Shown here: positions 44,967-48,093 of the stretch, one piece after another
Layout of the letters: each line of letters begins with the position of its first letter
Position numbering within the stretch: the first letter of the stretch is position 1
DNA from: Georgenia thermotolerans
GTDB taxonomy: Bacteria; Actinomycetota; Actinomycetes; Actinomycetales; Actinomycetaceae
Assembly: GCF_009193185.1 (NCBI RefSeq)
Contig: NZ_VUKF01000036.1
Coordinates: forward strand, 1 to 49,589
Direction: 5' to 3'
DNA: 49,589 nucleotides
The notes under the pieces: model-generated
The model's input: the letters and a program-made list of their open reading frames with translations, nothing else
Databases searched by the model: none
What the model was told of the DNA's origin: nothing
Translations under genes and position numbers: made by a program

Positions 44967-45078
44967 GACACCCCCTCGTCACCGGGTTCCCGCCACGGGC
45001 TCGGGGCAACAGCGCCCGGCCAGGGCCGCGCGTCGGTCCCTCCCTGCCGAGGCCGTGCGTCCGGCCACGCCACGGGTC

Positions 45079-45118
45079 GCGCGTCCGTCTCCTCCCCTGC
45101 CGGAGGGGACGGACGCGC
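45079..45118. terminator. Bidirectional hairpin between convergent genes
   Basis: GCGCGTCCGT (45079-45088) pairs perfectly with ACGGACGCGC (45109-45118); inner C-rich and G-rich bases (CCCC/GGGG) can extend the stem. It lies between the convergent stops of the DUF222-HNH gene (44966) and the LLM gene (45133). Confidence 0.7.
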
Positions 45119-45132
45119 GCGTCGTGGTGTGC

Positions 45133-46215
45133 TCAGGCGACGGGCACGGCCGCGAGCTGGCCGCCCGGGCGCGCGCCGGTGGTCGTCCGCCGCCGAGCGG
45201 CGCCGACCCCGGCGCCCTGGCCATCAGCGGCCGGCCGCGCGGCGGGACGCTGCGCCGTCGGCGCGTTCGCCACGGTCTCCTCCGCGACGAGGCCGCGGGC
45301 GCGCAGCTCGGGCAGCACCCCGCGCAGCAGGCCCACGACGTCGGCGGGCAGCGACCCGGGCAGGACGACGAACCCGTCGGCCGCCCCGGCCTGCACCCAG
45401 GTCTGGATGAGGTCGGCGACGTCGCCCGGGGTGCCCACCGCGCTGAGCGCGTCCCGCCACGGCGCGTCCTCGCCGTCGATGTCGGCGACGAGCTCGGCCC
45501 GCGCCTCGGCGCTGGCGCGGTCGGCGGAGATCACCGCGTGCAGGTCGACGAGCACGCGCACGTTCTCGCGGCCCGCGGCCCGGGCGGCGGCGCGGACGGC
45601 GTAGCGCAGCTCGCGCGCCCACTCGAGGTCCTGCTCGCGGATGCGCACGACGTCGGCGAAGGACCCGGCGACCTCCACCTCGGACTCGGTGCTCACCGGC
45701 ACGCAGACGCGGGGGCGCGCGGCCTTCGGGGCGCCCGCCCGACGCGGGAGCGTGCCGGTCACACCCGAGAGGGTGCGCGCCAGCGCGTCGGTGTCGCCGT
45801 TGTGGTCGGAGACCTGCAGACCCGCCCAGGCCCCGCCGGTCGCGCTGATCTGCGCGAGCTCGCCGGCGACGAGGGACAGGTCGGCGCCGCGCACCGGGAC
45901 GCTGGGCACGAGGCCCGCGGCCGCGTGGGGGCTGATGCGGCGGGCGGCGACCACCGGGTCGAGCCAGGAGTCACGCCGCACGACGCGGTCGCTGCGCAGG
46001 CGGAACTGCTCGCCGAGGGAGACGAAGGAGACGCCGCCGCGGTGGGCGGAGCGCGTGTAGGAGGCCAGGCGGGCCAGGTCGGCCTTCTCGACGGGCAGGT
46101 CGGCGGAGAAGCCGTCGGTCGCGCCGCTCACGCCGAGACCGGTGAGGTCGAGGCCGATGGTGGCCGTGGCGGCAGACGGTCGGGCGTTGCGGGTAGGCAG
46201 CAGGGAGACAGACAT
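45133..46215 (-). CDS. LLM flavin monooxygenase under SAM-IV control
   Basis: A 360-residue luciferase-like flavin-dependent protein of the group that includes NtaA/SnaA/DszA-type monooxygenases. It is best matched in the second half: ADVVRIREQDLEWARELRYAVRAAARAAGRENVRVL and VGTPGDVADLIQTWVQAGAADGFVVLPGSLPADVV (about 290-325), the family's C-terminal cofactor region. Relatives are often 430-450 residues, so this one is short, and its N-terminal part is divergent. About 45 low-complexity residues end the protein. Homology is best from the ATG at 46215. It is the only gene behind the riboswitch and leader peptide described upstream, which suggests a role in gaining sulfur from organosulfur compounds when SAM is low. 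Substrate unknown. Confidence 0.85.
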   Translation of the reverse strand: MSVSLLPTRNARPSAATATIGLDLTGLGVSGATDGFSADLPVEKADLARLASYTRSAHRGGVSFVSLGEQFRLRSDRVVRRDSWLDPVVAARRISPHAAAGLVPSVPVRGADLSLVAGELAQISATGGAWAGLQVSDHNGDTDALARTLSGVTGTLPRRAGAPKAARPRVCVPVSTESEVEVAGSFADVVRIREQDLEWARELRYAVRAAARAAGRENVRVLVDLHAVISADRASAEARAELVADIDGEDAPWRDALSAVGTPGDVADLIQTWVQAGAADGFVVLPGSLPADVVGLLRGVLPELRARGLVAEETVANAPTAQRPAARPAADGQGAGVGAARRRTTTGARPGGQLAAVPVA

Positions 46216-46377
46216 GGGTGCACATCCAGAGGTGTCGTCGCGCGAGGCGCGGAAAGCAGGAAGGAGACCCGCCCGGCCGGTCCCAGGCCGCGGTGTGTCA
46301 CGCACCCGGCGAGGGGGCTCTGGGGCAGGGGTGATGCGTCGGCGCAACTCAGCGCCGGGGCATCGCGGGGAACGTCG

Positions 46378-46470
46378 TCAGGCGGACATTCGCGAACGAC
46401 AGCACATGGACATGCACATGGAGCGGCGAGGCGAGAGAGCGATCTGCCTGGGGCTCGGGTGCGTGTTCAT
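46378..46470 (-). CDS. Met/Cys-rich leader peptide (30 codons)
   Basis: A small ORF in the leader between the SAM-IV riboswitch and the LLM gene. It encodes 30 residues; residues 18-28 hold four Met and three Cys (SMCMSMCCRSRM). An AAGGA lies about 13 bases before the ATG at 46470; an internal ATG would give a 13-residue form. A GGCGC/GCGCC hairpin (46340-46357) follows about 20 bases after the stop. The layout resembles amino-acid-dependent attenuators, where stalling at scarce Cys or Met changes downstream folding or translation. Cys-rich leader peptides are described in mycobacteria; here the assignment is inference from codon content and position. Confidence 0.55.
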   Translation of the reverse strand: MNTHPSPRQIALSPRRSMCMSMCCRSRMSA

Positions 46471-46509
46471 CGTCGTTCTGGTTCCTTCGTGCTCATGCAC
46501 CTGGAGGTG

Positions 46510-46641
46510 CCGTGCGTTGCCCCACGCGGACCGTGGGGCCAGGTCATCACCCGGGGCACCCCCAGCACGTGGGGGGTTGCCGACCAGCAAGCCGGGGCTT
46601 AGCGCACGTGGTGCGCACTGGTGCTCTGAACCTCGTGATCG
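46510..46641 (-). promoter_or_regulatory. SAM-IV riboswitch
   Basis: Read on the minus strand, this leader has the conserved SAM-IV core: AAGCCCCGGCTTGCTGG, GGCAACC, GGGGGTGCCCCGGGTGATGACC, as I know them from actinobacterial SAM-IV RNAs. Stems fit: ATCAC/GTGAT closing helix, ACCAG/CTGGT, AAGCC/GGCTT, ACCCCC/GGGGGT, and CCCCACG/CGTGGGG after the closing helix. CGCAC near the 3' end can pair with GTGCG in the 5' part as the pseudoknot. An extra GCGCAC/GTGCGC hairpin is inserted in the second helix. SAM binding should lower expression of the LLM gene at 46215. Confidence 0.93.
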
Positions 46642-46671
46642 AACCTAGGCGAGGCGTAGTTCAGGTGTCAA
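46642..46671 (-). promoter_or_regulatory. Promoter of the SAM-IV-controlled gene
   Basis: On the minus strand: consensus -35 TTGACA (46671-46666), 18-base spacer, -10 TAGGTT (46647-46642). The predicted start near 46635 falls at the first helix of the riboswitch, which supports both calls. It lies in the 519-bp gap after the proB stop. Confidence 0.8.
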
Positions 46672-46734
46672 CAATCCGGACCGCGCGTCTCGCGAGGTGG
46701 TCGAACGCCTGGTCAGGGCCGGCGCCTGTCGCCG

Positions 46735-47883
46735 TCAGCGCCGCCGGCGCGGCCGCACCTGCGCCAGGTCGTCGCGGTGGACGACGGCGCGCGGGTGCTG
46801 GTCGAAGTCGTCGACGAACTGATGGCTGGACTTGCCCATGATGTGCGGGATCTCGGCGGCGCCGTAGGCGGTCAGCCCGCGCGCGACGACGCCGTCGGGG
46901 CCCACCAGCTCCACGACGTCGCCGGCCTCGAAGTCGCCGTCGACGCCGACGACGCCCGCGGCCAGCAGGGACCGCTTGCCGTCGGTCACGGCGCGCGCCG
47001 CGCCGGCGTCGAGGTGCAGCCGGCCGCGCACCTGCGCCGCGTGCGCCAGCCAGAGCCGGCGGGCGGACTTGCGGCGCCCGGTGGCCGCGAACCAGGTGCC
47101 CACCTCCTCCCCCGCGAGCGCGGGCGCGATGTTGGCGGCGGAGGTGAGCACCACCGGGATGCCCGCGCCGGTGGCGATGGAGGCGGCGTCGAGCTTGGTG
47201 ATCATGCCGCCGGTGCCGATGTCGCTGCCGCGCCCGGTCACCTCCACCCCGGCGAGGTCGGCGCCGGCGCGCACCTCCCGGATCAGGCGGGTGCCGGGCC
47301 GGGAGGGCGGCCCGTCGTAGAGGCCGTCGACGTCGGTGAGCAGCACGAGCGCGTCGGCGCGGACCAGGTGGGAGACGAGCGCGGCGAGCCGGTCGTTGTC
47401 GCCGAAGCGGATCTCGTCGGTGGCCACCGTGTCGTTCTCGTTGACGATCGGCACGACGCCGAGGGTGAGCAGCCGCTCGAGCGCCCGCTGGGCGTTGGCG
47501 TAGTTGGTGCGGCGGATGAGGTCCTCGGCGGTGAGCAGCACCTGCCCCACCCGGCGGCCGTGGTAGGCGAACGCCTCGGTGTAGCGCGCCACCAGCAGGC
47601 CCTGCCCGACGCTGGCGGTGGCCTGCGCCGTCGCCAGGTCCTTGGGCTTGCCCGGCAGACCGAGCGGCATGATGCCCGCCGCGATGGCCCCGGAGGAGAC
47701 GAGGACGACCTGCTGCCCGGCGGCGCGCCGGTCGGCCAGCACCTGCACGAGGTGGTGGACGGCGGACAGGTCCAGGCGCCCGTCCGGGGCCGTGAGCGAG
47801 GACGACCCCACCTTCACGACGATCCGCTCGGCGGTGGGCAGCTCGGTACGGCTGGTCAGCGGCAGGTTCACGGCCCTCATCAT
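46735..47883 (-). CDS. proB: Glutamate 5-kinase
   Basis: A 382-residue ProB, the first enzyme of proline synthesis, phosphorylating glutamate with ATP in the cytosol. The amino-acid-kinase domain (about 1-265) has RIVVKVGSSSLT, VVLVSSGAIAAGIMPLG, VNENDTVATDEIRFGDND, LLTDVDGLYD and GTGGMITKLDAASIA; the C-terminal PUA domain follows (about 280-370, with GRLHLDAGAARAV). Start candidates are the tandem ATGs at 47883 and 47880 and a GTG at 47871, which has the best-placed Shine-Dalgarno (GAGGG); the first ATG is given. It is proline-feedback controlled in other bacteria. proA is 43 kb away on the same strand. Confidence 0.96.
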   Translation of the reverse strand: MMRAVNLPLTSRTELPTAERIVVKVGSSSLTAPDGRLDLSAVHHLVQVLADRRAAGQQVVLVSSGAIAAGIMPLGLPGKPKDLATAQATASVGQGLLVARYTEAFAYHGRRVGQVLLTAEDLIRRTNYANAQRALERLLTLGVVPIVNENDTVATDEIRFGDNDRLAALVSHLVRADALVLLTDVDGLYDGPPSRPGTRLIREVRAGADLAGVEVTGRGSDIGTGGMITKLDAASIATGAGIPVVLTSAANIAPALAGEEVGTWFAATGRRKSARRLWLAHAAQVRGRLHLDAGAARAVTDGKRSLLAAGVVGVDGDFEAGDVVELVGPDGVVARGLTAYGAAEIPHIMGKSSHQFVDDFDQHPRAVVHRDDLAQVRPRRRR

Positions 47884-48093
47884 CCCGCACCCGCGGCGCG
47901 GTCCGCGCCGGGCGTCCACGGCGCGCGCCCGCTTCGCCGCGCAACACTTGTCCCCCTCCGGCCCCCGGGGAAGAATCGGCCCGACAGCAGCCAGGCGGTC
48001 GTCGCGCGGTAGCCGGCGAGGGAGACGGACCGATCGGTGGCCGCGACGCGGGGCCGACGGCACCCGCGGGCGGACCCAGGGGCGGTGGTCGCC

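Follow-up and report, generated by a model that had tools for sequence, protein, structure and literature searches.

Do a SAM-IV riboswitch and a Met/Cys-rich leader peptide, placed one behind the other before a single monooxygenase gene, act as two sensors in series? The question is raised by a locus in the window, that is, the whole 49,589-nucleotide stretch of Georgenia thermotolerans DNA that we analysed. On the minus strand, the order is SAM-IV aptamer, 30-codon ORF, RNA structure and a gene for a divergent luciferase-like monooxygenase (Table 1). The first-pass annotation had described a tandem of aptamer and leader ORF before one monooxygenase gene at 46215, and both the Rfam scan and our reading of the ORF confirmed this layout. 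Directly upstream of the leader lies proB (glutamate 5-kinase; 46735-48063, minus strand); by eye, a proB-like gene end also precedes the homologous monooxygenase gene at the distant locus L047.

Table 1. Features of the leader region and of the gene behind it, with positions in the window.
Feature	Position	Strand	Basis and details
Promoter	46642..46671	-	TTGACA 46671-46666, 18-nt spacer, TAGGTT 46647-46642
SAM-IV aptamer	46507..46632	-	Rfam RF00634, 57.6 bits, E 1.2e-8
Candidate expression platform H1/H2	46489..46510	-	pairing inferred from sequence
Leader SD GAAGGA	46483..46488	-	read in sequence; 12 nt before ATG
Leader peptide ORF, 30 codons + stop	46378..46470	-	translation; homologous ORFs in relatives
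Met/Cys codon run MCMSMCC	46399..46419	-	translation
Hairpin PA around leader stop codon, GAATGTC/GACGTTC	46370..46391	-	92.9% of cells paired; A-U to U-A in 3/8 rows
Hairpin PB, GATGC..GCATC with inner stem	46333..46364	-	covariation; model match 46366-46269
Hairpin PC, outer stem CTGCCC/GGGCGG, apical GGTG/CACC	46269..46328	-	covariation; heptaloop CGTGACA 46302-46296
Regulated gene, divergent LLM/NtaA-DmoA-like monooxygenase, 360 aa	45133..46215	-	ORF, profile matches

The aptamer had been called complete, with an Rfam search proposed as the check. That search bears the claim out: the match, at 57.6 bits, exceeds the gathering score of 38 and spans the model from 1 to 116, with two pairs of the P5 hairpin marked as non-standard. 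The source genome holds a second SAM-IV copy, before another ORF. The promoter, described as near-consensus, stood up in one of its two parts. Its -35 element is a perfect TTGACA and is kept at 16 of 16 SAM-IV-bearing family loci with a Met/Cys leader (window included), and L034, where the leader has no SAM-IV match, reads TTGACG at this place. The -10 element TAGGTT did not bear out the description, agreeing with the consensus at three of six positions, and a promoter scan returned no sites at its threshold, the leader promoter included.

For the gene we took 46215 as the start; the ORF listing begins at a TTG upstream of it. Its assignment as LLM holds as a distant relationship, given an NCBIfam match to TIGR03860 (E 4.6e-18) and profile matches to PDB chains of DmoA (dimethyl-sulfide monooxygenase), YtnJ, MoxC, DszA and others, mostly of about 53 residues. 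It does not hold as a family assignment, as the product has no Pfam match up to E 1 and its TIGR03860 score of 65.2 bits lies below the cut-off of 279.7, which does not place it among the NtaA/DmoA proteins. Because some kin of the gene product act on sulfur compounds and the leader is rich in Met and Cys, we infer a role in sulfur scavenging. An AlphaFold model of the product (mean pLDDT 39.9 from five sequences) was unusable.

The leader ORF reads MNTHPSPRQIALSPRRSMCMSMCCRSRMSA, and a CGA-ATG codon pair stands near the end of the Georgenia leader. The motif AAGGA is found at all 17 family loci, a count to be read with the rule for picking the ORF, which itself required this motif. Searched against NCBIfam, including the leader models NF042934 and NF042936, the peptide of the window matched no family up to E 1, and it had no Pfam match. 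L191, another SAM-IV-linked leader, matches both of these NCBIfam models below their cut-offs. The locus has one expected mark of a ribosome-mediated amino-acid attenuator, a short ORF with an SD and clustered Met/Cys codons that are conserved between species.

We then asked how far the tandem extends. SAM-IV is present in nine of nine genomes of the window's genus (its own included), at 12 places. At nine of these, one in each genome, the same leader and gene come next, with leader ends that vary, as in SMCMSMCCRSRMSA, SMCMCMCRPGMSI and SMCMCMSCSRMSA. The remaining three of the 12 places lie before another ORF of 108-153 aa. In this second SAM-IV type (L001, at G000:C37:17342-17454, L006 and L008), that ORF starts with a C..PGPC.SYR.GH-like sequence. 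Named relatives of the monooxygenase gene are Georgenia at five of five loci. Homologs of the gene were found in 73 of 200 family genomes (E 1e-20) and in 37 of 198 genomes of the order sample (E 1e-15). Among the 57 homologous gene loci scanned with Rfam (the best-scoring homologs; L013-L017 repeat loci counted elsewhere), 38 carry SAM-IV and 19 do not.

At these loci we picked the first ATG or GTG that is preceded by an SD in the 120 nt behind the aptamer, a rule blind to content, which takes an upstream in-frame GTG at L028-L031. An ORF of at most 60 codons was returned at all 38 SAM-IV-bearing loci. It had been raised at the outset that the Met/Cys codons might vary freely between relatives while the riboswitch is kept; instead, at least five internal Met+Cys codons were found in 33 of the 38 first ORFs (11 genera, four families), though the rest of the leader drifts, with five loci to the contrary: L037 (one codon), L038, L041 and L140 (three each) and L044 (four). 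L038, L041 and L044 share another conserved leader between SAM-IV and the same gene; it ends LRRM(R/F)MWHKSMA. Under the same rule, none of 112 other SAM-IV loci (6 without an ORF, 74 with a long or open one, 32 with a short one) reached five internal Met+Cys codons; the comparison is uneven, since just three of the 32 short control ORFs have at least 20 codons and most, with fewer than 10, cannot reach five. The control loci are mostly best-scoring SAM-IV matches, with two repeats dropped, and in both counts loci of one genus are not independent of each other, so that a Fisher value for this comparison is not to be taken as a probability. Genus and family counts follow sample labels rather than names; for example, the g9 locus L032, on the same contig as L017, is Georgenia sp. 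Leader ends from other families read TCMMCCCSMSA, TCCMCMCLCTMA, RMCRARMCCPSMCR and RMCMCMSTCADRCCQR. Because the same arrangement recurs in all nine genomes of the genus and the Met/Cys content reaches beyond it, the tandem is more than chance: judged by sequence comparison, this succession of two known kinds of sensor is real and conserved.

Which part of the leader is conserved was examined in 33 leaders, 32 with SAM-IV (L141 left out) plus L034, of which 17 come from the family and 16 from the order. Every one holds at least five Met+Cys codons, and their density rises by thirds of the leader from 0.00 to 0.30 and 0.42 in the family and from 0.01 to 0.22 and 0.47 in the order. Cys conservation was followed in pairwise comparisons with Cys on either side, counted when it stood on both. 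This was the case in 36 of 40 comparisons in g58 and in 97 of 156 in g1+g8, the codons differing in 14 cases in each of these two groups. In g9 (39 of 61), g48 (9 of 9) and g77/89 (8 of 12), no codons differed. Whole-leader dN/dS was 0.74, 0.94, 0.53, 0.56 and 1.63 in the same groups (g58, g1+g8, g9, g48 and g77/89, respectively). Leaders of different genera vary in length and in the spacing of their Cys residues, and the sequence of the N-terminal half drifts. From the Cys comparisons, the density by thirds and the dN/dS values, it seems that the Met/Cys-rich end is kept rather than the peptide itself, as would be expected of an attenuator leader.

Between leader and gene, RNAalifold on MAFFT alignments missed most helices because the loops were misaligned, so we drew the helices manually and counted them afterwards. 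For PB and PC, we used 12 of the 17 family loci (alignment A3; the near-duplicates L021, L027, L028, L030 and L031 were left out). In these rows, 93.6% of cells were paired compared with 26-49% when the helices were slid, and 9 of 21 pairs were changed on both sides. Of 500 shuffles, none equalled these rows on four of the five measures, and 27 did so on the remaining one, further pair types. By this covariation, PB and PC are real helices. PA was aligned in eight of the 17 rows (alignment A4, also without L023, L026, L033 and L034); its 92.9% of paired cells was equalled by 12 of 500 shuffles. Only one of its pairs was changed on both sides, which 413 of 500 shuffles reach, and its support thus comes mainly from pairing, not from covariation. 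L026 has, by eye, a different hairpin at the place of PA.

The interval between leader and gene has no Rfam match up to E 10 except for a spurious snoRNA at E 3.8. A model built from the structure, R1, matched in 17 of 200 family genomes, with one match per genome and always at the monooxygenase gene, in four of 36 family genera (nine matches in the window's genus, one in g8, six in g9 and one in g14); 12 of these 17 loci built the model, and it returned no place beyond the loci already known. In the order sample, R1 matched four of 297 under strict filters, all from the own family. The heptaloop [AC]GUGACA on a stem of at least four pairs occurs in 19 of 33 loci, against 0.01 expected from mononucleotide shuffles, and seven of these 19 are among the 16 loci outside the family. 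PB/PC would probably serve as the readout of a Met/Cys attenuator.

No intrinsic terminator with a U-tract, the mark of a classical transcription attenuator, was found at 45000-46800. Because such a terminator is absent, we propose that the output would be Rho-dependent termination or translational control. In folds with the ribosome masked, the unpaired fraction of the gene RBS in the window rose from 0.21 with the ribosome at the stop codon, a state in which PA is zero since the mask covers it, to 0.57 with the ribosome at the first Cys codon. The same masking gave a change from 0.41 to 0.56 at L023 and from 0.28 to 0.52 at L029, and shifts of at most 0.07 in either direction in the other nine of the 12 loci. 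Duplexes of leader and RBS at these 12 loci averaged -22.6 for cognate and -21.2 for permuted partners (sd 0.78), with 4% of permutations as low, and the cognate duplex was stronger than both non-cognate means in just 6 of 12. As modelled here, masked folds and duplexes give hints of translational control in the window. A leader-RBS pairing of about ten pairs, seen by eye in the window, was marginal against shuffled partners, the sequences being related, and was not built upon.

How could SAM reach the leader? Eighteen nucleotides separate the annotated end of the aptamer from the leader SD, and two mutually exclusive hairpins can be drawn there. H1 pairs GCACC (46510-46506) with GGTGC (46501-46497), and H2 pairs GTGC (46500-46497) with GCAC (46492-46489), abutting the leader SD. 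The H1 pattern is present in 13 of the 17 family loci and the H2 pattern in 15, with a loop of at least 3 nt in 11 of these and of only 2 nt in four (L028-L031). L025 and L027 are without H1 and H2, and GAGCACG itself adjoins the SD there. Judged from the sequence, the P3 loop CACGTGC could pair with the GCAC tail that is held in the 5' arm of H1. Because the leader SD lies directly behind the aptamer and these putative switchable hairpins, SAM binding would be expected to affect leader initiation.

Based on these features, which the comparison finds kept together (SAM-IV aptamer, Met/Cys leader ORF and PA/PB/PC), we consider it reasonably probable that the locus is a two-sensor leader in series, in which SAM-IV would control initiation at the leader and ribosome stalling at the Met/Cys codons would control the gene. 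In this working model, bound SAM would lock the aptamer 3' end through a pseudoknot of the P3 loop with the GCAC that otherwise forms H1; H2 would then form against the leader SD, and leader translation would stop. At low SAM, the leader would be translated and the ribosome would read the Met/Cys codons, reaching the stop codon inside PA when charged tRNA suffices and stalling upstream when it does not. The downstream structure would convert the ribosome's position into gene expression, probably by one of the two outputs proposed above. In trp-type leaders, absence of leader translation means off. By analogy, expression of the gene would require both low SAM and a shortage of Met/Cys-tRNA, as in an AND gate. 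The earlier proposal of two sensors in series, for SAM and then for charged Cys- or Met-tRNA, gains support from the comparison, with 33 of 38 leaders rich in Met/Cys.

Against the two-sensor reading stand the five of 38 loci without a Met/Cys-rich ORF, the 19 of 57 gene loci without SAM-IV and the looser Cys conservation outside g58 and g48. On the same side count the whole-leader dN/dS values, the small mask effect at nine of 12 loci, the marginal duplex signal, the missing terminator, the H1/H2 patterns lost at L025 and L027 or left with a 2-nt H2 loop at L028-L031, the weak covariation of PA and the lack of new places for R1. SAM-IV could instead be the sole sensor, with translation of the uORF keeping Rho off or feeding ribosomes to the gene and the Met/Cys codons being incidental. 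Such a relay would fit with riboswitch-controlled uORFs already in print (M. tuberculosis B12/ppe2 and Mbox/pe20, in the available text of PMC11260477 and PMC12810186), with the mini-ORFs poor in Met/Cys codons at other SAM-IV loci and with the five exceptional loci named above, which have SAM-IV yet fewer than five Met+Cys codons. However, a passive role does not explain why 33 of 38 leaders, from 11 genera, are rich in Met/Cys codons or why these cluster towards the C-terminus, and we regard the relay as unlikely. That the leader SD lies directly behind the aptamer and the switchable hairpins also speaks against SAM-IV acting alone beside an ordinary Cys/Met attenuator that is independent of it. 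L034 (genus g14) keeps the leader and PB/PC with no SAM-IV match, which means that the modules can separate, and L040 has a short ORF ending HCRMCR, likewise with no SAM-IV match; even with these two loci in its favour, we give independence of the two modules quite a small chance.

A third sensor might reside in PA/PB/PC itself, as an orphan aptamer or a protein site with the heptaloop at its core. We rate this as improbable: the conserved unpaired bases, the heptaloop and the lack of an Rfam match would suit it, but the structure could equally be the output of the attenuator, and R1 matched at this one gene only. Hardly any credence is due to the idea that the product of the ORF is a functional thiol peptide, for instance a metal-binding one, rather than a regulatory leader. 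Its C-x-C-like clusters would favour such a peptide; the drifting N-terminal half, the varying length and Cys spacing and the lack of a family match for the peptide of the window argue against it. Among these readings, we prefer the proposed serial (AND) logic. A fuller version of it, which we put forward tentatively and hold to be doubtful as a whole, would see a natural two-input AND gate in which the riboswitch licenses a tRNA-sensing leader and both SAM and charged Cys/Met-tRNA must be low for the gene to open, with a new structured RNA (PB/PC and its heptaloop) as readout and small Arg-Met or Met/Cys uORFs as a common SAM-IV output in actinobacteria.

Other SAM-IV loci carry short ORFs of their own. 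Mini-ORFs at 34-67 nt from the SAM-IV end, ahead of genes named by eye as metY-like or cysteine-desulfurase-like, often hold CGA-ATG (Arg-Met), as in VSKRMR, VTCRMRR, VIERMCR and VNCRMCC. Such loci are L065, L067, L072, L076, L077, L080, L083, L084, L089, L102, L163, L172, L178, L185 and L200; at L178, no start codon was found in frame with CGA-ATG. The hexamer CGAATG occurs in 15 of 112 SAM-IV loci against 1.5 expected, a value computed with the aptamer end misplaced in four of the 112 (L066, L087, L093 and L116). At L069, L071, L078, L190 and L191, SAM-IV is followed by Cys-type leader ORFs (MRCCCQ, MRCCPLTRSH, RCCCR, RRHIDLxxxxSxxC), because of which the combination of SAM-IV and Cys leader may recur before other genes. 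An unusual expansion to 9-10 SAM-IV matches per genome was seen in genus g42 of family f7 (G280, G293 and G306).

If the two-sensor reading is true, one mRNA would integrate, in series, the end product of a pathway (SAM) and the charged Cys/Met-tRNA status of that same pathway, and a uORF would become a concrete target for the expression platform of some SAM-IV riboswitches in actinobacteria. The locus also adds a covarying RNA element without an Rfam match.

Each of the three elements (Cys leaders, SAM-IV, and uORFs under riboswitch control) has been described before. The annotation's remark that no such tandem was known agrees with the literature as far as the available portions of open-licence full texts (preprints not included) go, in which the combination of SAM-IV and a Met/Cys leader was not found; riboswitch-uORFs and a Met/Cys leader (PMC8079986) are nevertheless in print separately. 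Compared with a typical SAM-IV (RF00634), the complete aptamer above the gathering score is the same; the first ORF, long or open at 74 of the 112 other loci, is here a Met/Cys leader and not a metabolic gene. In the text at hand of Seliverstov 2005 (PMC1262725), Cys leader peptides without terminators are described in mycobacteria and relatives, and PMC13236596, in its accessible part, cites Cys attenuation in M. smegmatis (Canestrari 2020, as cited there). As far as described in these texts, such leaders share with ours a short ORF whose Cys codons lie close to its stop, a position before a sulfur gene and the lack of a detected intrinsic terminator; in the window, by contrast, Met alternates with Cys, a riboswitch precedes, an SD is present and the NCBIfam leader models give no match. 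A Cys uORF motif before cysS appears in the available passages of PMC8632094.

The Streptomyces lividans metNIQ leader metL, as given in part of PMC8079986, has 29 codons, ends RCMCRRMCAF and is missing a typical terminator. It resembles our leader in its Met/Cys-containing end, its similar length and the missing terminator; it differs in its gene and in that the accessible text names no riboswitch with it, SAM-IV and the metNIQ leader being at separate loci. In M. tuberculosis B12/ppe2 and Mbox/pe20, a riboswitch controls a uORF before the downstream gene, and for ppe2 translation of the uORF is essential for expression (accessible text of PMC11260477 and PMC12810186); those passages do not present the uORFs as sensing amino acids, and the ligands differ from SAM. 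Excerpts of PMC9373788 deal with a SAM-II riboswitch acting at a distance, and those of PMC9481103, on tandem riboswitches, do not contain the term "leader peptide". In Xanthomonas, a SAM-I riboswitch also senses uncharged initiator tRNA, according to the available text of PMC7270179, in which the terms "leader peptide" and "uORF" are absent. There, the riboswitch itself responds to the tRNA, in contrast to the separate leader ORF proposed here; what the two systems would have in common is that SAM and Met-tRNA status are combined before one operon.
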